Positions 44,047 to 54,605 of a stretch of DNA of 64,000 bases are shown here, piece by piece. The notes under the pieces were generated by a model, which did no database searches, was not told the origin of the DNA, and was given only the letters and a program-made list of their open reading frames with translations. Positions within the stretch are counted from its first letter, which is position 1. Every line of letters starts with the position of its first letter. Origin of the DNA: Chitinophagales bacterium (lineage in GTDB: Bacteria > Bacteroidota > Bacteroidia > Chitinophagales > Chitinophagaceae); the NCBI GenBank assembly GCA_026936105.1, contig JAIXKI010000017.1:167445-231444 (forward strand), given 5' to 3'. The translations under genes were made by a program, and so were the position numbers.

Positions 44047-44517
44047 ATGAAGCAATTCCTGACCCTGAACTTTTTTCTTTTCACTGCTTTATTTTCCGTT
44101 GCCCAAAATAAGACTTCAACAAACGGAAATACTGATGCAGTAAAACAATCCGTTCTTCAGTTAAAAGAAACGGAACACGATTTTTCACAAATACCTCAGG
44201 GCAAGCCTGTTTACTACAATTTTGAAATTGTAAATACCGGAAAAGAGCCTTTGAAACTGGATGACGTCCGTGCAAGTTGTGGATGCACCACTCCTGAATG
44301 GAGCCGCGATCCTATAGCGCCGGGCGCCACAGCAAAGATCAAGGTAGGATATAATGCTGCTGCTGACGGTTATTTCGAAAAATTCATTACGATTACTTAT
44401 AACACCGATCAAACAGAACAACTAAAAATAAAGGGCACGGTCTGGAAAGTCCCCAGGGATCTGCTCCGGCCAATGCCGCAGTTGAATTTCTTAAAAAACA
44501 AAACCTTTAAATTTTAA
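44047..44517 (+). CDS. DUF1573 secreted protein, copy 1
   Basis: The 156-residue protein has a signal peptide (about 1-19, ending SVAQ) and one DUF1573 domain, an immunoglobulin-like fold: ETEHDFSQIPQGKPVYYNFEI, the conserved ASCGCTTPEW and IAPGATAKIKVGYN. A short Pro/Lys tail follows. The role is unknown; such domains often support envelope or extracellular assembly. A paralogue begins 5 nt downstream. Confidence 0.9.
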   Translation: MKQFLTLNFFLFTALFSVAQNKTSTNGNTDAVKQSVLQLKETEHDFSQIPQGKPVYYNFEIVNTGKEPLKLDDVRASCGCTTPEWSRDPIAPGATAKIKVGYNAAADGYFEKFITITYNTDQTEQLKIKGTVWKVPRDLLRPMPQLNFLKNKTFKF

Positions 44518-44522
44518 AAAAA

Positions 44523-44948
44523 ATGAAGAAAGTTTTATTACCCGTGATCGCTCTTTTTTTCAGCGTATCCCTAATAGCTCAGACAAAAGCCGATGATGTA
44601 ATCAAAGTGAATGTTGAAAAGCATGACTTTGGAAAGATCAAACAAGGAGTTCCCGTTGACTATTATTTTGAAATCAAGAATATCAGCAACAAACCGGTAG
44701 TGATCCAGAACTCCTGGGCAAGTTGCGGGTGTACCACTCCCGACAAAATCACTGAGCCTATAGCTCCGGGAGCTACCGCAAAACTGAAAGTACAGTACAA
44801 TGCTGCTGCTGTTGCTCCTTTTACAAAGGATGTTTACATTCAGGTGGCAGGCATTGAGAAACCTAAAACAGTTCAGATCACCGGAGAGGTGCTTAAAGCT
44901 GATGCATACGATGCATGGGTGAAAAGCAAAGACAAAGGAAAGCAGTAA
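44523..44948 (+). CDS. DUF1573 secreted protein, copy 2
   Basis: The 141-residue protein has a signal peptide (about 1-19, ending LIAQ) and one DUF1573 domain: EKHDFGKIKQGVPVDYYFEI, ASCGCTTPDK and IAPGATAKLKVQYN. It is clearly paralogous to copy 1 and cotranscribed (5-nt gap). A terminator follows. Both keep the two Cys of SCGC. Confidence 0.92.
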   Translation: MKKVLLPVIALFFSVSLIAQTKADDVIKVNVEKHDFGKIKQGVPVDYYFEIKNISNKPVVIQNSWASCGCTTPDKITEPIAPGATAKLKVQYNAAAVAPFTKDVYIQVAGIEKPKTVQITGEVLKADAYDAWVKSKDKGKQ

Positions 44949-44975
44949 TAGAATAATAAATCATTATAAACCGAA

Positions 44976-45006
44976 AACTCTGCAGGGCAACTGCGGAGTT
45001 TTTTAT
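44976..45006 (+). terminator. Terminator of the DUF1573 operon
   Basis: AACTCTGCAG (44976-44985) pairs with CTGCGGAGTT (44991-45000), with one G-T pair, and is followed by a T run. Confidence 0.9.
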
Positions 45007-45106: not shown

Positions 45107-48100
45107 CTATTTCGGCAACATTAGTTTTCTGAATACATCCGAACTTTCCAGATAACGGATCACTTGTTTTTGCAGTTCTGTATTTTGTTTGCTCGACCCG
45201 TTCTGAGAAGTGAAATACACAGTAAAGAACTTATTGAAATGTTTAAAGGTGTAATCAGCACTCGTCAGATCCCTGGCTGAGATTACCACTTCCAGAAGTT
45301 TAGATTTTGTTTTTAACTCATTATCCCCTGTAGTCCCCGTCTTGGCATAATAAAAATAGGGTGAGCCGTTTTTAAGTTGAGATCCCAGTCCGGCAGCAGT
45401 CCCTCTGAATAGAGCCTCCCTCATTCCGGCAAAAACTCCATCACGCATCAACGAAAGAAAATTATTGTAGCCTATGGCGCTGTCAATATAAAAAGGATTA
45501 AACGCAAGCGATGAGGCATAAGGATTCAGCGTAAGGCCATAATTCCTGTTCAGAGTGACCATCTTTCCAAATGCTTCCATCATCTTCACCGGCGGTATCA
45601 ACACCTGACTGCTTCCTTTCACATGGCCTCGAAGGCAATTAGCAAATACATCATAAGGAACGTTCATGTTCATATTGTTGCCGGTCTGATCAAACAATCC
45701 GCATTCAGGTAAAATGAATCCCGACCTTTTGCCGGCATTGCCAAAAAGAAGCGAGTCATAACGGGAATAAAAGCGATCAAATCCTTTTCCGGGATCACGG
45801 TTGTAGATCCCGAAATTACTCAACATACCTATGGAGATGAAAGAACTGTCTGACCCGAAATGAGCTTTCCCGTTTGAATATCCCGGCCAGTTCTCAAATC
45901 CATCGAGCCAGTATGTTTTTCCGTTATAAAAGAAATAAGGCCAGTGCATGCCGCTCTCAGGATTCTGCGTCACGAAATAGCGGGAGAGTATATTGTTCAG
46001 GTTTTGCTTCGGATAAGATCCTAACAGCAAAACATTGGAATGAAAATAATTGTCGGACAAACGTAAATATTCCGTAAGTTTTTTGATCAGTCCATGATAT
46101 TCTTCAAAATCATATTGAGCCACTTTTTCACCACCGTAATAGTTTTGCGGTTTCGAAAAACCATCAGAAGCAAAAAGATCCCAGTTAATATTGAGCTGGG
46201 AAGCCATTGAAGAAAATGCAATAGGTTTTAAAGTGGAGCCGGGCCCCGGATTAAGCCTCAGTAAATTGATATTCCCTATCAGCTTCCGCAATTGCGATTG
46301 AGGAAGTGGGCCATTCTCGTTATTTAAAATATTCAGGAAAGCCGATCTGTCATTGGGATCTGGACGATATGTATCTTTTATAAAATCATTCATGGCCAGC
46401 AACCGGCCGTTTCCGTCCGCAATGCAAATGCCATATTCAGCTCCAGCCTTATAAGAAGAATCTTTACCAACAACCCTCCGTATGATCGAAGAAAGTGAAT
46501 CCATCAACTCAAAGTCAAAAGATACAAAAGCATTTTTTGCAGCATGATCAACAGTGGCATAATCGGATGCAATGCTTTCAGCAAAATTGCGTGCCCAGAT
46601 AAACTTGTCTCCTAACGGATATACATAAAACCGGTTGCCATTCACAAAATAATTTTTCATAAAAGCATCCGGCTCCACCGTGATGATTTTTTCATTTTCT
46701 GAATCCATCTCATCAAGGACATAACGCCCGGGATTCTGTAATAACAAACTGTCTCCGGCAGAAAGATTCTTCCCCACATTGTCAACATTTATCTTTCGTG
46801 TGCTTTTCCCTGAGTTTACCAGATATAATTTTCTATACAACCCGGGCATCACTGATTCCCTGAAAGAAAGCAGCAGGCCATCGCTCAATTCCTGATCCGG
46901 CCGGTCTGTAAGATTTATAAGGCGTTTTTTGATCACGGTTCCTGAATGGTGATCCCACATAGCAATGTTATAAACAGATGTATCGCCAAAGACGTTGCCG
47001 GTCCATGCATATTGCAAATGCGGAGGCGGGCTGACCCTGAAATAATTTTCATTGGCAGTTATCTGCGGAGTGCCGGTATTCAGATCCAGATATAAAAACC
47101 TTTTCTGATCAAGATGGCTCGAAAAACCGGACCTGGAATAATCAATGATCTCTTTCTGAAAAAAGTTATTATCACTACTTAATGCACCGGACGAGATCAT
47201 TTTTTTCAGTGAGTCAACAAAGAGTCCATCCCTTTTTGCAAGTGGTACTTTCCTTTCCTTCTCATTGAAATAGGTAAGCACAGGCTGAATCTTTGATTGT
47301 ACATAAGAGTTCATGGCTCCTGAAAGATCGTTCACATTAAATTCCCTGTTCTTATTGAAAGCCGGTTTTACAAACAGCATCAGTATCAGCAATCCTGAAA
47401 AGACCACGATACCCGGAATATTCTTTTTTCTGTTTGAATAATATTGTACGGGCACGGCACTGAAGAGAAGTACGGCCATCATGATCAGCAGGGATGGAAA
47501 TAAGATGGATTGCTTGCTTAAAATACTTCCGAAAGGCAGGTCCTGCCCGAAGAAGATATATTTTCCGGTGGCAGCCAGTATCACCAGCAATGCACTGATC
47601 AGTAAATAATTCAATAAAGTGAATCCGAGTGTGGAAGTAGGGTAATCCGTATTGGTCCTGTTGGTAAAATCAGGATACAATTTATAAAAAGGTGATAAGG
47701 TGATCACCGGCAGCAATAACAACAATACGAATAGCAGTACGGACCATTTCCCGTGTTCTGCAATAAAAAATCTGCTGGCCACAAGATCGGTCGCCTGTGC
47801 ATTGTATTTGGCACCTTTATTTTGCGGAGCATGAGGCAGCAAGTGAAAACCTGCTGAGTTAACAGCGGGATTGTTCTTTTCATAGATAAAAGTATTGATG
47901 AACCATTGGTTCTGTGCTGCACGAATGACGGGTTCATAAGTCTTTCCTTCTTCATAAGCCAGTTGAACCGCTTTATCAGGCGACATTGTCAAAACATCTA
48001 TCCGGTATTTTGTTCTTTCTGCTTTATTCAGAATAGTGTCTTTGGGCACAAAGAAAAAATAGGCTAAGGAAAGTACAGGGAGGGCAATGAATAAAAGCGC

Positions 48101-50338
48101 AGCTCTCCGGGCCTTCTGCATGCCGGGCGCCAGCACTCTTACCAGGTTCAGAATGACCATCCATAAGAAAATACCGAAGATGACCGTGAAAATAATCTGA
48201 GGTAATTGCAAAACATAACCCAGGAAGTAAGGAGCAAACAAAAGATTCAGCACAAACAATAATGTGTACAGTATGGCTGAGAAAATAAAAATCTTTCTGT
48301 TCACCGAATTGCCTGCCGAAAGTCCTGATATACTGTAATTGATATTTAAAAATGCTTCATTGAATAAAATAAAATTGAGGAATACGATGGCAAAGCCAAT
48401 GTCTATGAATACAAATACTCCCAGCAAACTGAGTGACAACAGGATCTTGACCGGGTTGCTTACCAAAACATGGAGAGGGTCGAAAGTATCTATCTTCCAC
48501 CAGCTTTTTTCTACAGAGGCCACCAGTGGTGAGTGACTGCATGAAATATACAGGAAAACAAAATACAGGACCATCAACACCAACGAAATATGCCTGCAAT
48601 CATTCGCATTAAAATTCTTCAGGTAAGCCCATCCATAACATAACAGCAGCGTAATAAACCACGCTAAGAAAAATACATATTTGGGATAACGGTTTATGAC
48701 AGGGAATCGCAAAACTGTCTTATGAATCATCTTCTCAGCTATTCCTTTAATCTTCACTTTTCCTGATAAGGGTGAAAATAAACGTTTAAACAGATCGAAC
48801 CCGAAGAATAGTGCCAGCATGATGCCGGTAAGAATGATAATCCTGAAATTCCAGATACTTTCCAATTGCTGTACCGAAGGAAGGTCCATCCCTTCGTAAG
48901 GAGGAAAACTTTTATACCTCCAATAGAGAAATATCCTTGTTGTTAAAAAAACGAGAGTAGTACATGACAATAATTGCCACACCCAGCTGATCTGCCCAGC
49001 AGGTTTTAATAAATAAGTAAAAAAAACAAGCAGGAAGAAGAAGCCTAACATTCCAAAAATCTGAAGCTGCCAACGATCGGATGTAAGAGTCCTGTCACTG
49101 AACTCCCAGTTAAATGTGTTTTTCAAGGAAAAGATCCATTGAAAATCCTTTGAGACTGCCGGAATCAGTAACCGGTTATCTTTCCAGTCCAGAAACGATT
49201 TTGAATTTCTTAACGGGACAGTCTTTATGTTCAATCCCGCATTGGCCGGACCGTTTTGATAGCTTAACAATACAGGTTGAAAGCGCTCAGCCGTATCACC
49301 TGCCCCGGAAGTAAATAAAAATCCTTCACTGAAAACGGAAGGCATATTTTGCAGATCTCTACTATCCGATACCAGGAATTTATTTATTGTATAGGATGAC
49401 CAGTTATTTTTTTGTTCACCCGAAAGAGGATAAGAAACAGGAAATCTGTTCCTGATCACAAATGCGTTTCCTGTTTTGTTTTCTAAAGAATATTGATTTT
49501 TATTGTTGTCCATGAATCCTATTCCCCAGGCGAACCGGCTGTGATCATTTATGATCGTATTAAACGCCAGGTTCGATGCCTTGATTTCTTTCCCATCATA
49601 ATCAGCTATGCCTGCAGTTTTAAAAAATTTACCGGAAAAGAAATATTTCATGCTGCCATATCCGGCCCTTGAAACACTGTCACGTAACAAAAAAATTTCT
49701 TTCATGCTTGCTGACAGCAACGGGTTGTCATAATATTCCGAATTGACAAATGCATCATCATCTTTAAACACATTCCAGGCGGATAATCCTTTTTTGACCA
49801 GCCTGCTTGTTGTAAATGTTTTACCGTTCAGTTGAATTTCAAAATCCTTATCTCCATTCATTTTAAGGGTCACAGGCAATGAACCGGCCTTAAAACTTAA
49901 TACATGCCCGGATGCAGGATAGTTTACTGAAGCCAGCCGGTAAATACCTGAAGTGGATACGTAAAACGGATCATCTGAATAAGAAGAATTTAATACAACA
50001 TTGCCCTTCTCTTTAGTAAACGTAAACCGATCATAAGAATCATTTAAAACATTAACAGTATCTGAGTTTCCTAATGAGATCTTTTTGTCAACATAGTACC
50101 CGTCATGCTGAATAAAATAATGATCAAGGTTGCTGAAGGTCTTTAAGCTCAGAGGAGCATGCATGTTGATCCATAGAAAGGAAAAGCAGGCAATACTGAT
50201 CAAAACGAACAAAGGAAGGAAGATCTTTTTTCTCCTTCCGGGTTTAGACAATGACCTGTAATAATAAATTCCATACCAGAGCAGGGCTAAAAAGGTCAGG
50301 GCATAAAGAAAAGAAAGGCTGGTAATGATCTTCAGCAT
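45107..50338 (-). CDS. Giant membrane protein: SEDS-like glycosyltransferase fused to PBP transpeptidase
   Basis: The protein has 1743 residues. Two N-terminal helices (about 4-26, 39-58) precede a beta-rich external domain (about 60-425) without known relatives. Around a dozen helices span 427-990 and carry FtsW/RodA-like marks: FIDIGFAIVF (Asp646) like the DLGTA segment, an external loop with HLLPHAP then ATDL (Asp851) and AEHG like the LPxAxxDFIF...EE.G loop, and DLPF at 933-936. The RWI and GGSS motifs are not evident. A pedestal-like region follows, then a transpeptidase domain: strand AEYGICIADGNGRLLAMND, S1368-TL-K1371, S1428-D-N1430 and K1666-T-G1668. It should polymerise and cross-link glycan in one chain. 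It is last in a four-gene operon, 9 nt after its neighbour. The transpeptidase call is firm; the SEDS call is probable. Confidence 0.8.
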   Translation of the reverse strand: MLKIITSLSFLYALTFLALLWYGIYYYRSLSKPGRRKKIFLPLFVLISIACFSFLWINMHAPLSLKTFSNLDHYFIQHDGYYVDKKISLGNSDTVNVLNDSYDRFTFTKEKGNVVLNSSYSDDPFYVSTSGIYRLASVNYPASGHVLSFKAGSLPVTLKMNGDKDFEIQLNGKTFTTSRLVKKGLSAWNVFKDDDAFVNSEYYDNPLLSASMKEIFLLRDSVSRAGYGSMKYFFSGKFFKTAGIADYDGKEIKASNLAFNTIINDHSRFAWGIGFMDNNKNQYSLENKTGNAFVIRNRFPVSYPLSGEQKNNWSSYTINKFLVSDSRDLQNMPSVFSEGFLFTSGAGDTAERFQPVLLSYQNGPANAGLNIKTVPLRNSKSFLDWKDNRLLIPAVSKDFQWIFSLKNTFNWEFSDRTLTSDRWQLQIFGMLGFFFLLVFFTYLLKPAGQISWVWQLLSCTTLVFLTTRIFLYWRYKSFPPYEGMDLPSVQQLESIWNFRIIILTGIMLALFFGFDLFKRLFSPLSGKVKIKGIAEKMIHKTVLRFPVINRYPKYVFFLAWFITLLLCYGWAYLKNFNANDCRHISLVLMVLYFVFLYISCSHSPLVASVEKSWWKIDTFDPLHVLVSNPVKILLSLSLLGVFVFIDIGFAIVFLNFILFNEAFLNINYSISGLSAGNSVNRKIFIFSAILYTLLFVLNLLFAPYFLGYVLQLPQIIFTVIFGIFLWMVILNLVRVLAPGMQKARRAALLFIALPVLSLAYFFFVPKDTILNKAERTKYRIDVLTMSPDKAVQLAYEEGKTYEPVIRAAQNQWFINTFIYEKNNPAVNSAGFHLLPHAPQNKGAKYNAQATDLVASRFFIAEHGKWSVLLFVLLLLLPVITLSPFYKLYPDFTNRTNTDYPTSTLGFTLLNYLLISALLVILAATGKYIFFGQDLPFGSILSKQSILFPSLLIMMAVLLFSAVPVQYYSNRKKNIPGIVVFSGLLILMLFVKPAFNKNREFNVNDLSGAMNSYVQSKIQPVLTYFNEKERKVPLAKRDGLFVDSLKKMISSGALSSDNNFFQKEIIDYSRSGFSSHLDQKRFLYLDLNTGTPQITANENYFRVSPPPHLQYAWTGNVFGDTSVYNIAMWDHHSGTVIKKRLINLTDRPDQELSDGLLLSFRESVMPGLYRKLYLVNSGKSTRKINVDNVGKNLSAGDSLLLQNPGRYVLDEMDSENEKIITVEPDAFMKNYFVNGNRFYVYPLGDKFIWARNFAESIASDYATVDHAAKNAFVSFDFELMDSLSSIIRRVVGKDSSYKAGAEYGICIADGNGRLLAMNDFIKDTYRPDPNDRSAFLNILNNENGPLPQSQLRKLIGNINLLRLNPGPGSTLKPIAFSSMASQLNINWDLFASDGFSKPQNYYGGEKVAQYDFEEYHGLIKKLTEYLRLSDNYFHSNVLLLGSYPKQNLNNILSRYFVTQNPESGMHWPYFFYNGKTYWLDGFENWPGYSNGKAHFGSDSSFISIGMLSNFGIYNRDPGKGFDRFYSRYDSLLFGNAGKRSGFILPECGLFDQTGNNMNMNVPYDVFANCLRGHVKGSSQVLIPPVKMMEAFGKMVTLNRNYGLTLNPYASSLAFNPFYIDSAIGYNNFLSLMRDGVFAGMREALFRGTAAGLGSQLKNGSPYFYYAKTGTTGDNELKTKSKLLEVVISARDLTSADYTFKHFNKFFTVYFTSQNGSSKQNTELQKQVIRYLESSDVFRKLMLPK

Positions 50339-50347
50339 TCTGTTGGT

Positions 50348-51358
50348 TTAGCGGTGGTTCAAATCGGTTTCCTCAAAAACAGGATAAGAAAGGTTATCAA
50401 GATGAATTTTTTCCAGTATCATTCTCAACACCAGGGCACGGCTTCCGTTTTGAGTGTTTAATTTTTTCAAAAGGGAAGGATTCAGGGCTGCTCCGTTCCT
50501 GATATCGGCAATGCGTTTCACAATATTCCCGCCAACCGATAATTCATCCACTCTCAGGTACAAATATTCAATGTATAATAAAGACAAAGAGATCAGCAGT
50601 TCCAGAAGTTTATTCTGCTGTTCCTTATCCATCCCTGAAGGATTATTTTTATTTTCATCCACTATAGCAGTTACAGGCTTCACATATTGTTCGTACACAT
50701 GTGTAGTGAAAGATCTCTCGGTTTCAAACAGATTCTCCAATACTTCAAAATCAGACTGGTCAGTAGAAGCTCCGGGATATTTCCTGGCCTTGAATGTTTT
50801 TGAAATGGAATTTATGAGTGCCTCAAATTCATTTTGAGTTCTGCCATATTCTTTCATCACCGCATGAAGGCTCCCGTTCTCTGTTTTCAACTTCTCCAGC
50901 TTGTCTTTCATTTCCTTCAACTGGGATTGGATTTCAGAAACGATCTTTTTATCGTTCTCACTCACATGGCCATTCAGAGGTGGTATTATTCTGGGTTCCT
51001 GCTGTGGCAACTGACGGCTTAGCCTTTCAGATAAAATGGCGAAATGCTTTTTCTGCCAGAAGAACAACACGGCGAGTAAGGCAACAGAAATTAAAGAAAT
51101 CACTATCGAAAGAAATAACCAGCTATCATTATAATTTTTTTCTTCTTTCACCGGCTCAATAACCTTAGGCTCTTCTTTAGCTGCTTCCTGCGATTTTATC
51201 AAAGAATCCAGCTCCGACCGGAGCAGGATCGGATTGCGCAACCTTATCTCCTGCAAAGTCAGTGTGTCCACGACACGGATATTCTTACTATCCGTCTGGG
51301 CATTCAGAGAAAAGAAAAAAAGAATGCAGAGAAAAAAAAGAAAGAATTTATTTTTCAT
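50348..51358 (-). CDS. Membrane-anchored coiled-coil protein of the SEDS-PBP operon
   Basis: The protein has 336 residues. A signal-like hydrophobic start (1-20, ending LNAQ) is followed by a short external stretch with TLTLQEIRLRNPILL, a charged Glu/Lys linker (57-74), one membrane helix at about 80-101 and a cytoplasmic part. That part has a coiled coil at about 135-170 (heptad-like SEIQSQLKEMKDKLEKLKTE) and a helical domain at about 175-325. I do not recognise a family. The topology (short outside, long helical inside) would suit a linker between the actin-like ATPase encoded just upstream and the membrane synthase just downstream, with 9-nt gaps on both sides. Confidence 0.75.
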   Translation of the reverse strand: MKNKFFLFFLCILFFFSLNAQTDSKNIRVVDTLTLQEIRLRNPILLRSELDSLIKSQEAAKEEPKVIEPVKEEKNYNDSWLFLSIVISLISVALLAVLFFWQKKHFAILSERLSRQLPQQEPRIIPPLNGHVSENDKKIVSEIQSQLKEMKDKLEKLKTENGSLHAVMKEYGRTQNEFEALINSISKTFKARKYPGASTDQSDFEVLENLFETERSFTTHVYEQYVKPVTAIVDENKNNPSGMDKEQQNKLLELLISLSLLYIEYLYLRVDELSVGGNIVKRIADIRNGAALNPSLLKKLNTQNGSRALVLRMILEKIHLDNLSYPVFEETDLNHR

Positions 51359-51367
51359 ATGCCCTTT

Positions 51368-53746
51368 TTAAAAATTGAAAAAATGAAAAACTCCGGCCCG
51401 CTTCCTGGCAATTTTCTTTTTTATAACCGGGTTGTTCTTAAAAATATCATTGTAAACAGTTTCAATGGAGGCCAGTTCTCCGCCCTGGGCAGGAAACATT
51501 GAAATGGATCTCATGTCCTGGGTTGGTGAATATACCTCGGCCGCAGAAGTCAGAATGCTGTATAATGACCTAACATCTTTCACTTTCTGATTCTCCATCA
51601 GGCGGAGATAAATATTATCCCGGGTAAAATAAATATCCATTGTCCGGTTGCGAAATGCTTTCAAAGCCTGATTGTTTCTTCGCACAACAGATGTATTATA
51701 AATAATATCATTGCCCGGTTCTATCTTAATGCCGTGATAAAGGAAAGCATTGTTGTTTATCACATCATTATTCCTTGACAAGCCTTCTTTCTTATCAATA
51801 GGAATGCCAGTAAAATCAGTTATCTTATAAGCGCCGCTGAAAGCGCCGTGCAGCGCCACATTTTTGTTATTCACCGTTCTACCGGGAGTGACAGAGTTAA
51901 TACTTACATCCTCACCCAAAAGGGACCTCAGTTCTCCTTCCGTCTTTGTTCTCAACTGTTCTAAATAAAATGCCCTCCCGCTCAGCATCACCACCTTGAT
52001 GCGCTTGCGTATGTCTTTAGTGATCACGTCACGGATGCTGGAAATGATAGATCCCACAATGCAATCTGTAGCTTTTTGAATTAGCCCCGTGATCTCATTG
52101 TCCCAACGGATATTTCTGTCTCTCAGTATTGCCTCTGCATACTGTAGTAAGGTACCCTGATCCTTGTATAGATTGGCTATTGACCTTTCGGTTGATTCTG
52201 ACCGCTCAGTAAGTTTTGCAAATTCCGTCAGCCCTATTGCAGGAAACTGATTGTATTTCTTTTTTTGAGTTTCGACCAATTGAAGAAAATCAAAAACATC
52301 AATGGTCAGGTTCTGATCCAGAATTTGCTTCCGGATAAAATCTTTCACGGATATGTCATTATTTCCCGGAATGGCCTTTAATACCAGGGTCAGGAAATCT
52401 TCTGCAAATCCATACGACAGAACATTGCCGGCTCCGGCAAATCCGGTCCTGAAGAAACTGCTGTAATTCTCATTGTCATCTGCAAGCACCATTGAAATAT
52501 CGGTAGTGCCTTTTCCGCAATCAATGACCAGCGCTATCTCACCGTTCGATAATCTTATCTCCGGTTGTGTTTGCTGATAGCCCATAAAAGAAGCATCGCT
52601 TTCTGAAATGGTTTCATATTCTACAAACAGTTCTTTTTCAGCAATACCCAATGAAGCAAGCATCCCTGAAGTACGGCTGCGCAGCTCATTCAGAAGGTCG
52701 AATATATTTTGTTGTGTATAGATGTTCGGCACCAGTAAGGTCACAATGATGCCTCCCTGCCTGAAATCCGGTTTGGTGGCAATCATCAAACGAAGCAAGC
52801 GCAGGATAATGGCGCTGATCAATTCTTTTTTATGCTGCCTGATACTGTAATCCTCCGTTCTGTCGCCGCAAATAAGCTGAAGGCTTTTTTCAATTCCCAG
52901 CTTCAGATTGGGAACGATCTCATAGTCCGTTTTAAAAGAAGATTGTGAAACGGCAGCCACTTCCTGTTTCGTTACGAACAGCCTTATCTCATCTTTTTCA
53001 ATATTATTGGTGAAGTTGAAGGGAAAATTCTTTCTATCTTCTGCCGATATCTTTTTTTTGACTGCATAAAAAGACCGGTAGAGATTATTATGTCCCGGTT
53101 CATTGTTCAAAAAATCTGTTCTCTGAAAATTTTTTGTAAAATCAGCTGCCTTCAGCGTACTGCTGATATTTCCCAGGATATCATAAAGGATAAAAGACGA
53201 TTGGGGCCCGCAATTCTTATAACCTATCTGGCTGGCTTCACTTCCGAAATCAATAGCCACCCTCTGGCAATGACGTGAAGGCACGATGGCAAAATGAAAA
53301 CAGGCTGAATAAATCTTTCCTTCTTCGGGTTCAAAGAATACATTGACAGAAAAAGGTACCTGCTCCACCCTGTTTTTATAATAGCCCAATATGATCCGTT
53401 TCTGTTCTTTGGAATAATCCAGTTTCACTCCGGTATTATCATCATAAAAAGGAACCACGCTGAATGCATTGCTTTTTTTGATCAGCAACTCAAAACCGTC
53501 ACCTGTTTTTGATAAAGAAACATGACATTCATTCATTAAAACATCCTGCAGGTCAACCGGGGCCATCTGATTCAACCTGACCTTATCCGGGTCTTCGATT
53601 GTCAGTATGGGCGAAAGCACACGGTCCTCTGCATGGATCACAAAATCATAATCAGCAGGTTTTGCTTTGTCCGCTTCTTTTTTTTCCAGCCTGGTTATAA
53701 AATAGCGGTCGCTGCGGATCAATACAGGCAAATAATACAAACCCAT
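51368..53746 (-). CDS. Actin/Hsp70-fold ATPase-like protein of the SEDS-PBP operon
   Basis: From the chosen ATG the protein has 792 residues; an ATG 16 codons earlier lies inside the preceding gene. No signal peptide is present. The actin/Hsp70 nucleotide motifs are visible: phosphate-1 AIDFGSEAS (Asp166), phosphate-2 VIDCGKGTTDISM (Asp409) and an adenosine-type VVMLSGRAF (Gly590). About 160 N-terminal residues precede the ATPase fold. The last 18 residues (KKKIARKRAGVFHFFNF) are basic then aromatic, a plausible membrane-binding tail like that of FtsA. It differs from FtsA, MreB and DnaK in length and spacing. SrfB-type Hsp70-like proteins are a possible distant relation. A cytoskeletal or scaffold role is inferred. 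Confidence 0.75.
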   Translation of the reverse strand: MGLYYLPVLIRSDRYFITRLEKKEADKAKPADYDFVIHAEDRVLSPILTIEDPDKVRLNQMAPVDLQDVLMNECHVSLSKTGDGFELLIKKSNAFSVVPFYDDNTGVKLDYSKEQKRIILGYYKNRVEQVPFSVNVFFEPEEGKIYSACFHFAIVPSRHCQRVAIDFGSEASQIGYKNCGPQSSFILYDILGNISSTLKAADFTKNFQRTDFLNNEPGHNNLYRSFYAVKKKISAEDRKNFPFNFTNNIEKDEIRLFVTKQEVAAVSQSSFKTDYEIVPNLKLGIEKSLQLICGDRTEDYSIRQHKKELISAIILRLLRLMIATKPDFRQGGIIVTLLVPNIYTQQNIFDLLNELRSRTSGMLASLGIAEKELFVEYETISESDASFMGYQQTQPEIRLSNGEIALVIDCGKGTTDISMVLADDNENYSSFFRTGFAGAGNVLSYGFAEDFLTLVLKAIPGNNDISVKDFIRKQILDQNLTIDVFDFLQLVETQKKKYNQFPAIGLTEFAKLTERSESTERSIANLYKDQGTLLQYAEAILRDRNIRWDNEITGLIQKATDCIVGSIISSIRDVITKDIRKRIKVVMLSGRAFYLEQLRTKTEGELRSLLGEDVSINSVTPGRTVNNKNVALHGAFSGAYKITDFTGIPIDKKEGLSRNNDVINNNAFLYHGIKIEPGNDIIYNTSVVRRNNQALKAFRNRTMDIYFTRDNIYLRLMENQKVKDVRSLYSILTSAAEVYSPTQDMRSISMFPAQGGELASIETVYNDIFKNNPVIKKKIARKRAGVFHFFNF

Positions 53747-53756
53747 AATAGTTGAT

Positions 53757-54605
53757 TTATTGTTTACAATACCATTTATCGTTGTTATTTCCATAGTTGC
53801 TTTCTTTCTCCGCCGAATAACAGAAATTGAATGCTTTGGATTTCAGCGATGAAAAAGAAACCGAAATGCTGTCTGCTTTATAACTGTTTTCGATCTTCAG
53901 TTTCACCGGCGATATGTATCCGATATTCGTCAGACGAAAAGTGTCCTTATTATTCAAAACATAATTACCGGCGCTGACCTTCTTCCAAGTGTTTAACTGA
54001 ACCACTGCGTCATCCAGATTGTACCCGGTAGAATTATCCACTGCTATTTCAAGGTTATCATATTTATTGGTGGACCTGTTGGAAAACTTGTCTCCGTTAA
54101 GTTTCAGGCTTATCATTTCCGGCCAGGTATTACGGATACGGAAATTGGTCTTTGTCACTTTATCCAGGCTTTGCCCCCTTTGTGTTTCTATGATCTGAAT
54201 AAGAGAATCCACATTCAGGTCCGGGGTATTGGCAGGCCTGGGTGAAACAATATTGATCGTTCCGGCGCTTTCCCAGCGCAGGTGTGTAAAATTGTACACC
54301 AGCATGGCTGCAGAAATGATCACAACAACAATAATAAATTTTTTTATTTTGGATTTCCAGCCGGGAGTTTCTGTTTCGCCCTGGTCTATAACAGGAGGAA
54401 CTATCATTCCCGGTGCTATCACTGGAGTGATGGAAAAATTTTTTGCTTTGGCAAAATCGGTATAGCTGACCCATTCATTGGTATCAAACTCCCAGATCCT
54501 TGTTCGTGAAGGATCGCTGACAGAACGGAGCAATGATTTCAGTTCTTCGGTGGAATGAACTTCCTTAATGATATTCGTTCCGTCATTGAACAAATATTTA
54601 TTCAT
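53757..54605 (-). CDS. Bitopic protein with GYF-like N-terminus, first gene of the SEDS-PBP operon
   Basis: The 282-residue protein has a small cytoplasmic domain (1-60) with the pattern YLFNDGTNIIKEVHSTEELK and IWEFDTNEWVSYTDF, reminiscent of GYF_2-type peptide-binding domains. A Pro-rich linker (61-80) precedes a membrane helix (about 87-108). The outside part (110-282) is predominantly beta with Asn/Ser-rich loops; EIAVDNSTGYNLDDAVVQLNTWK suggests an immunoglobulin-like fold. It opens the operon; its stop is 10 nt before the next gene. A GYF-like domain could bind a proline-rich partner, but that is inference. Confidence 0.7.
   Translation of the reverse strand: MNKYLFNDGTNIIKEVHSTEELKSLLRSVSDPSRTRIWEFDTNEWVSYTDFAKAKNFSITPVIAPGMIVPPVIDQGETETPGWKSKIKKFIIVVVIISAAMLVYNFTHLRWESAGTINIVSPRPANTPDLNVDSLIQIIETQRGQSLDKVTKTNFRIRNTWPEMISLKLNGDKFSNRSTNKYDNLEIAVDNSTGYNLDDAVVQLNTWKKVSAGNYVLNNKDTFRLTNIGYISPVKLKIENSYKADSISVSFSSLKSKAFNFCYSAEKESNYGNNNDKWYCKQ

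Follow-up and report, generated by a model that had tools for sequence, protein, structure and literature searches.

Does a bacterium that already has machines for cell elongation and cell division encode a further one for building its wall? This question is raised by an operon in a 64,000-nucleotide (nt) stretch of DNA from a Chitinophagales bacterium (assembly GCA_026936105.1, contig JAIXKI010000017.1, positions 167,445-231,444, forward strand). We call the whole stretch the window and use its own numbering for all positions. Four genes on its minus strand, here named A, B, C, and D, had been proposed, from the letters alone (the sequence-only reading), to form an extra, self-contained wall-synthesis system. 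Our analysis favors, as the likely product of the operon, an accessory peptidoglycan synthase that is self-contained and would act independently of the machines with which the same cell elongates and divides. This conclusion builds on a fusion protein (D), a predicted ATPase (B), and the linkage between them, whereas A, which the proposal had included, lies outside the conserved unit.

The operon and its fused protein D

In the open reading frame (ORF) list of the window, the four genes stand in tandem in the same direction: A at 53757..54605 (282 amino acids, aa), B at 51368..53746 (792 aa, ATG at 53746), C at 50348..51358 (336 aa), and D at 45107..50338 (1743 aa). All operon features below are on the same minus strand. 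Taking the B start at ATG 53746, the gaps A-B, B-C, and C-D are 10, 9, and 9 nt. The ORF caller placed this start 16 codons earlier, overlapping A; we preferred ATG 53746 because most listed B homologues begin at MxLYYLP. Translation verified the starts and motif positions in frame, confirming the tandem order and gaps first read from the sequence. A protein database search at E ≤ 0.001 found 249 proteins related to D and 715 related to B; in the listed top 120 for each, the match spanned 95-100% of the query. The operon ORFs are therefore not chance.

Protein D is likely a SEDS-like polymerase and a class B PBP-like transpeptidase in one chain, with predicted catalytic residues intact. Its folds and topology, like those of the other operon proteins, were derived from models and profiles. 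Hydropathy placed a predicted periplasmic domain (aa 60-424, 49067..50161) between transmembrane (TM) helices 39-57 and 425-443. The structure model and a profile comparison with decoys then delimited a SEDS-like membrane domain (aa 545-970, 47429..48706) of seven TM helices, a large loop, and three TM helices. The remainder (aa 971-1743, 45110..47428) comprises, by hhalign and the structure model, a class B PBP-type TM helix, a linker and pedestal-like part, and a transpeptidase domain. According to hydropathy and the model helices, the seven TM helices lie within aa 552-763 and are followed by an 88-residue loop; helices 852-881, 899-923, and 942-960 come after the loop, and a further helix at 970-989 runs into the PBP. 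This predicted layout is that of a SEDS protein plus a class B PBP. Ten TM helices and a large loop between TM7 and TM8 bearing the catalytic Asp, the SEDS-type topology, were thus recovered in D, with the loop modeled at low confidence.

RodA Asp262 and FtsW Asp297, both in that SEDS loop, are described as required for function in passages of PMC10449877 and PMC8765783. The candidate polymerase catalytic residue of D is Asp851 (47786..47788), which aligned to the Asp of the FtsW NDFIF motif. When D was compared by hhalign with the window's own FtsW, D851, R779, and E861 fell on Asp, Arg, and Glu, and LPFxS (934-938) fell on LPLVS. In profile comparisons, a 61-member SEDS family scored 30.7 against D, versus 16.2 for the reversed control, and a more diverse D profile gave 37.5 versus 23.2. 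When the 61 SEDS proteins and 30 polytopic decoys (not all of them distinct) were compared singly, the top 16 scores all belonged to SEDS proteins (36.3-25.5), and the best decoy reached 24.3.

The transpeptidase half was more readily recognized. All three class B PBP catalytic motifs were present in D: SxxK as STLK (S1368, K1371; 46226..46237), SxN as SDN (S1428, N1430; 46049..46057), and KTG (K1666; 45335..45343). The predicted transpeptidase fold, the pedestal-like part, and the single N-terminal TM helix are likewise those of a class B PBP, and hhalign gave a probability of 98 for this part against the transpeptidase. Of 25 D proteins, 10 matched PF00905 at E ≤ 10, the strongest with E 6.8e-6. 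Neither this family nor any other Pfam model matched the window D, and in the genome of the bacterium PF01098 and PF00905 missed D and detected the standard genes. PDB sequence searches gave no convincing match, with one PBP1B row (E 0.007) over the KTG region. The fusion suggested by the sequence-only reading therefore stands for its transpeptidase half, on motifs, relatives, profile, and model, and to a moderate degree for its SEDS half.

Conservation was assessed in 172 D sequences: the window D, the best 120 of the 249 database proteins, and 51 of 55 loci described below (four shorter ones were dropped), with some overlap in taxa. D851, R779, Q848, E861, S1368, K1371, N1430, and K1666-T-G were invariant in all 172, and S1428 was conserved in 171, being T in one. 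Mean identity between one subtype of loci (subtype 1, defined below) and the other loci was 21% in D and also 21% in B. Both active sites of D have therefore been kept across great divergence. Four gut Bacteroidales versions of D (L071, L072, L073, and L076) are longer, at 2024-2391 aa, the fusion having gained sequence there.

The predicted ATPase B and the membrane proteins A and C

The structure model of B, built from 42 sequences (pLDDT 82.9, pTM 0.87), shows an N-terminal beta domain (~aa 1-157) and an actin/Hsp70-fold ATPase (~aa 158-645); hydropathy found no TM helix. Two motifs, which we take to be phosphate-1-like and phosphate-2-like, are DFGSEASQ (aa 166-173, 53228..53251) and DCGKGTTD (aa 409-416, 52499..52522). 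In an alignment of 42 B proteins, no variation occurred at D166, G168, and Q173 of the first motif or at D409, G411, G413, T414, and D416 of the second. B thus combines the fold and the phosphate-binding motifs of the actin/Hsp70 ATPase superfamily, and the ATPase fold read from the sequence was borne out by the structure model, by Foldseek, in which the 50 best rows were all Hsp70/Hsp110-type (best E 2.4e-12), and by VIA. The basic-aromatic C-terminal tail (51368..51409), which ends in GILQFFxF in most subtype-1 members, could be a candidate membrane or partner contact.

Family-level matches were weak. Pfam at E ≤ 1 on 42 B relatives gave DDR in 16, MreB in 11, actin in 9, FtsA in 2, and HSP70 in 1 (best E 0.0072 for MreB and 0.13 for FtsA). 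The window B matched no Pfam family at E ≤ 1, and PF06723 did not match it in a profile search of its own genome. The window's true FtsA matched FtsA and SHS2_FTSA; B had no such match and was not placed in the MreB or FtsA family. No FtsA row for B appeared among the 50 VIA entries listed, which excludes nothing. A possible link to SrfB/SrfC-type Hsp70 systems was dropped after a literature search found nothing. Two genomes, G528 (C255) and G546 (C116/C156), carry a second strong B homologue on a separate contig, and an Hsp70-like gene elsewhere (783 aa, L178:4582-13875) adjoins genes that read as helicase-like and restriction-like, possibly a defense island.

Protein C has a signal-peptide-like start, a TM helix at aa 81-99, and a coiled-coil-rich C-terminal part predicted to be cytosolic. 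The coil was placed there on the basis of the positive-inside rule for membrane topology. The hydrophobic segments recur in most C counterparts. Matches of C in Pfam, NCBIfam, and PADLOC, including weak PADLOC ones (best 4.3e-5, to the PtuA model over aa 128-259), were set aside as what looks like coiled-coil noise. Protein A consists of a short, predicted cytosolic N-terminal domain, a TM helix at aa 91-109, and a predicted periplasmic C-terminal part. Its earlier label as GYF-like was not upheld: the window A matched no Pfam family at E ≤ 1, and no GYF family appeared among 15 A proteins at E ≤ 10. Pfam, NCBIfam, and PADLOC (the latter at E ≤ 1) returned nothing usable for the window A, B, and D, and none of the four operon proteins had a Pfam match to MreC, MreD, or FtsQLB.

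These features suggest how the proteins could work together. The genes and their order, linkage, and co-occurrence are established, as is the conservation of the catalytic residues; lipid II as the substrate, the formation of a complex, and the direction of control are inferred. The SEDS-like domain of D would polymerize lipid II with Asp851 as the proposed base, and the fused transpeptidase would crosslink the new strand through an acyl-serine at Ser1368, so that both steps would occur in one chain. Cytosolic B would switch or position D through its ATP cycle, and C, as a bitopic coiled-coil protein, would relay the signal of B across the membrane to D. In the known machines such a signal is carried across the membrane by RodZ, FtsQLB, or FtsN. 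A, or the partners found in other lineages, may act as further adaptors or outputs.

Linkage and distribution of the genes

Two peptide patterns, by which more distant forms would be missed, yielded 55 D loci in a scan of 84,980 species genomes. Their records belong to named Bacteroidota groups and once to an uncultured bacterium; they cover Chitinophagaceae and other metagenome-assembled genomes (MAGs), Terrimonas, Taibaiella, Edaphocola, Emticicia, Persicitalea, a Flavobacteriaceae MAG, Saprospiraceae, and gut Bacteroidales MAGs. Two loci (L055 and L067) come from a single genome, on different contigs. B adjoined D in 50 of the 55, and the other five (L029, L044, L054, L055, and L070) have 0-111 bases upstream; B therefore stood beside D in all 50 testable loci. 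A single ORF of at least 80 aa lay between B and D in 40 of these 50.

Subtype 1 (20 loci) has the order A-B-C-D, with C in 19 and missing just where the contig is cut. A was confined to this subtype, in 17 of the 20 loci, the remaining three being cut by contig ends. Subtype 2 has the order B-C-D-E-F, with C in 17 loci, E in 16, and F in 18, and loci with neither order carry different neighbors. The conserved unit is thus B-C-D, joined by A in one subtype and by other partners in other lineages. This order is not mere synteny, because the families outside the operon are each confined to one group of loci. The four-gene linkage that the sequence-only reading had proposed to check held across Bacteroidota for B and D and was limited to subtype 1 for A. 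B and D identities correlated (r 0.97 over 47 loci), which kinship alone could give. As an exception to the B-C-D arrangement, B and D are divergent and ~120-220 nt apart in a Saprospiraceae locus (L063:5008-13063) and in genome G639.

Genome surveys gave a similar picture. In the order (396 genomes), 13 genomes had a D match, one of them a fragment (G570), and 14 had a B match, two of them weak part-matches (G705 and G508). With these set aside, both occurred in the same 12 of the 396, the source genome included, and were neighbors on one contig in 10 of the 12 (on opposite strands in G639). Among 395 genomes of the phylum, D was found in two, again including the source genome, and B in the same two, besides two weak matches (G288 and G273). 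The weak B matches in G288, G273, G508, and G705 and second matches in G034, G615, and G638 were excluded from co-occurrence; those of G288 and G034 read as Hsp70/DnaK-like proteins. The system is thus rare and sporadic. Searches with B in 72,556 plasmid and 50,697 phage records found no match.

Some lineages carry additional partners. Both Persicitalea loci (L060:2478-13882 and L066:2985-14110) have a caspase-domain gene with Sel1 repeats between C and D, matching Peptidase_C14 (E 1.4e-31 and 4.8e-30) and also the PADLOC caspase model. In both, B has an N-terminal HEPN_Swt1-like stretch scoring 24.2 and 27.2 against the Pfam cut-off of 27.5 bits, and a sigma-factor-like gene lies upstream in L060. 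In Persicitalea, the operon may be coupled to an effector of cell death. Among the gut Bacteroidales, one locus has a downstream FHA gene (L064:14608-15387, E 4.3e-7) and an upstream rhamnosidase-like gene, and another has a weak double-GTPase match upstream (L071:3-935, E 0.001). Most of the 20 extra neighbor proteins from other lineages gave no informative family in a Pfam scan. Caspase, HEPN, FHA, and GTPase-type domains recur in conflict and signaling systems, so the task of the operon may be damage response as much as shape; the caspase-like and HEPN-like Persicitalea neighbors fit stress or conflict no less than morphology.

Downstream of D in the window, a pattern match identified a terminator-like stem-loop (44973..45003, strand unassigned, scored on the plus-strand copy) with 13 pairs and a T run; the pattern scan found 16 such sites in the region against 8.8 expected. 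Beyond it, convergent with the operon, are two tandem genes for small exported proteins (44047-44948; 156 and 141 aa) sharing an ASCGCTTP motif, presumably of the DUF1573 type.

Relation to known machines and alternative explanations

The elongasome consists of MreB, RodZ/MreCD, RodA, and PBP2, and the divisome of FtsA, FtsQLB/FtsN, FtsW, and FtsI. By predicted fold and topology, the operon resembles both in combining an actin/Hsp70-fold ATPase, one or more bitopic linkers, a SEDS-type polymerase, and a class B PBP. Unlike in those machines, polymerase and PBP are here one 1743-aa chain with an added N-terminal domain, and the ATPase, B, is divergent and 792 aa long, with a beta domain at its N terminus. 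Pfam matches confirmed the earlier observation that FtsA, FtsW, and FtsI are encoded separately in the window, and MreB lies near a presumed PBP2 and a presumed RodA on contig C9 of the same genome. The operon is therefore additional to the standard set.

Fusion of the two enzymes is not new in kind, because natural SEDS-PBP fusions of 1355, 1379, 1223, and 1221 aa occur in other Bacteroidota (G007, G010, G086, and G070; L136:9037-13104, L137:7455-11594, L170:7558-11229, and L171:6335-10000, found by profile search or reading), single-ORF fusions are cited from the Rhodococcus RHA1 genome (passages of PMC10449877), and artificial RodA-PBP2 and SpoVE-SpoVD fusions work (passages of PMC6207328). 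The latter two show that one chain can hold both activities, but the passages of these two papers name no ATPase operon. Pfam clearly recognizes both a SEDS and a transpeptidase domain in the 1355-aa fusion (L136), whose gene has PP2C, FHA, and Ser/Thr kinase genes as neighbors. This neighborhood is reminiscent of the actinobacterial PstP-RodA-PbpA-PknB-Fha cluster. The Bacteroidota fusions share with D the order of TM helix, extracytoplasmic part, SEDS, and PBP (by Pfam in L136, by reading in the others), but hhalign at default settings aligned the PBP part alone. The 1355- and 1379-aa proteins were accordingly rejected as close relatives of D, the D profile being unmatched by them at E ≤ 10; no B or D profile match was found at that threshold among any ORFs of L136 and L137. 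A second elongasome in Salmonella uses PBP2SAL, 63% identical to PBP2, and shares RodA, MreB, MreC, and RodZ (passages of PMC10492807). It too is an extra synthase, and one that is used conditionally, whereas the present operon has its own, only remotely similar polymerase, transpeptidase, and ATPase. In the open-licence literature we found no published description of a divergent fusion with a dedicated ATPase and linker, and the named relatives of B and D, among those listed, are hypothetical or uncharacterized, except one B called 'acetate and sugar kinases/Hsc70/actin family'.

Several observations count against an accessory peptidoglycan synthase. Model confidence is lowest (pLDDT 42-46) in the loop preceding D851, at whose end this residue lies, and Asn846 occupies the position of RodA Pro257, a required residue five positions N-terminal of the catalytic Asp (passages of PMC10449877), so that this Pro has no counterpart. 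The membrane part of D reached an hhalign probability of 21% against 31 SEDS sequences and 7% against 61, rising to 26 to 37% with the more diverse D profile; against the corresponding part of true SEDS-PBP fusions (two and four sequences) it stayed below 1%. In the single-protein comparison, 45 of the 61 SEDS proteins scored under the best decoy. PF01098 was absent among the 25 of 26 families listed for 25 D proteins (Pfam, E ≤ 10), and a structure search with the D model listed matches to the PBP half, which say nothing about the membrane half. One internal stop each interrupts the D frames of G778 (C13:67352-72754) and G743 (C8:87913-93480), by sequencing error or decay; B and D lie on different contigs in G546 and G550, both fragmented assemblies; and the D match in G570, a 184-aa fragment at a contig end, has no B. 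Finally, B was tied in VIA between DnaK (15.8, 370 residues) and MreB (15.1, 299 residues). Because of the modest profile scores, the missing Pro257 counterpart, and the lack of a listed PF01098 match, we call D SEDS-like and not a SEDS member, an assignment of moderate strength that is not Pfam-grade.

Two doubts weigh most: does B form an MreB-like filament or act as an Hsp70-like switch, and does the membrane half truly polymerize lipid II? For B, either answer is conceivable, because it is equally close to DnaK and MreB. As an Hsp70-like conformational switch or chaperone, B would fold, assemble, or gate D with no cytoskeletal track, and D would still make peptidoglycan. We regard this version as a serious contender, short of being the favored one. 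It agrees with the Foldseek rows, with the weak matches of the B profile to Hsp70/DnaK-like proteins, and with several DnaK/BiP alignments in VIA (one entry being an integrative model) that run past the ATPase core to B 729-743 over 337-402 residues, compared with ~300 for MreB; the B region beyond the core, where an Hsp70 chaperone has its substrate-binding domain, is short and partly of low confidence in the model. As for the membrane half, it might instead be a GT-C glycosyltransferase acting on a different lipid-linked polymer, or a ligase; the operon would then decorate an envelope glycan or anchor it to the wall rather than polymerize lipid II. The weak SEDS profile scores and the PF01098 result fit this idea, as do elements that SEDS proteins share with the GT-C O-antigen ligase WaaL (passages of PMC10449877). 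We nevertheless find it improbable, given that the domain is fused to a class B PBP-like transpeptidase that is intact and of the kind with which SEDS enzymes pair, that its catalytic Asp, Arg, and Glu are in SEDS register with the 16 top comparisons all SEDS, and that the domain order of D is that of the undoubted fusion L136.

A further alternative overlaps with the proposed mechanism but assigns it another purpose: the operon may be a stress or conflict module, serving as an alternative synthase, or as a wall-damage sensor built on one, when beta-lactams, phage, or rivals block the normal synthases, and triggering an effector in some lineages. We give it a little less weight than the Hsp70-like version of B. 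The scatter of the genes over several distant families (2/395 phylum and 12/396 order genomes) speaks for it, along with the caspase gene and sub-cut-off HEPN-like stretch of Persicitalea, the FHA gene, and the weak double-GTPase match. The caspase, however, is found in two loci of one genus only, the window A, B, and D lack PADLOC matches, B is absent from the plasmid and phage records, and the conserved chromosomal neighbors of subtype 1 (family F5, 13 loci) suggest vertical inheritance there. That D merely joins ordinary duplicated FtsW/FtsI or RodA/PBP2 genes is very hard to sustain. Natural fusions in the same phylum, and the Rhodococcus one cited in passages of PMC10449877, provide a precedent, but PF01098 and PF00905 miss D in its own genome while detecting the standard genes there and the 1355-aa fusion elsewhere; moreover, an additional N-terminal domain sets D apart, and a dedicated ATPase accompanies it in every testable locus.

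We therefore retain an accessory peptidoglycan synthase as the likely product of the operon. A conditional task (wall damage, stress, or conflict) is argued for by its sporadic spread, by the presence of the standard machines, and by the caspase-like and HEPN-like domains of Persicitalea. In a bolder and distinctly more tentative formulation, the operon would be a third autonomous peptidoglycan machine, in which a single-chain polymerase-transpeptidase works with a dedicated actin/Hsp70-type motor and a transmembrane coupler; this B-C-D cassette, sporadic in Bacteroidota, would build or mend the wall under attack beside the standard machines, with the caspase of Persicitalea answering failure. 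If true, bacteria would have a third self-contained way of tying wall synthesis to a cytosolic ATPase, one in which a single protein performs both enzymatic steps. It would offer a compact natural system in which to ask how an ATPase of the actin/Hsp70 type controls a SEDS-class B PBP pair across the membrane, a question still open. In this large environmental phylum it might also represent a target of beta-lactams or a means of bypassing them, and protein families that are unnamed today would gain a testable role.

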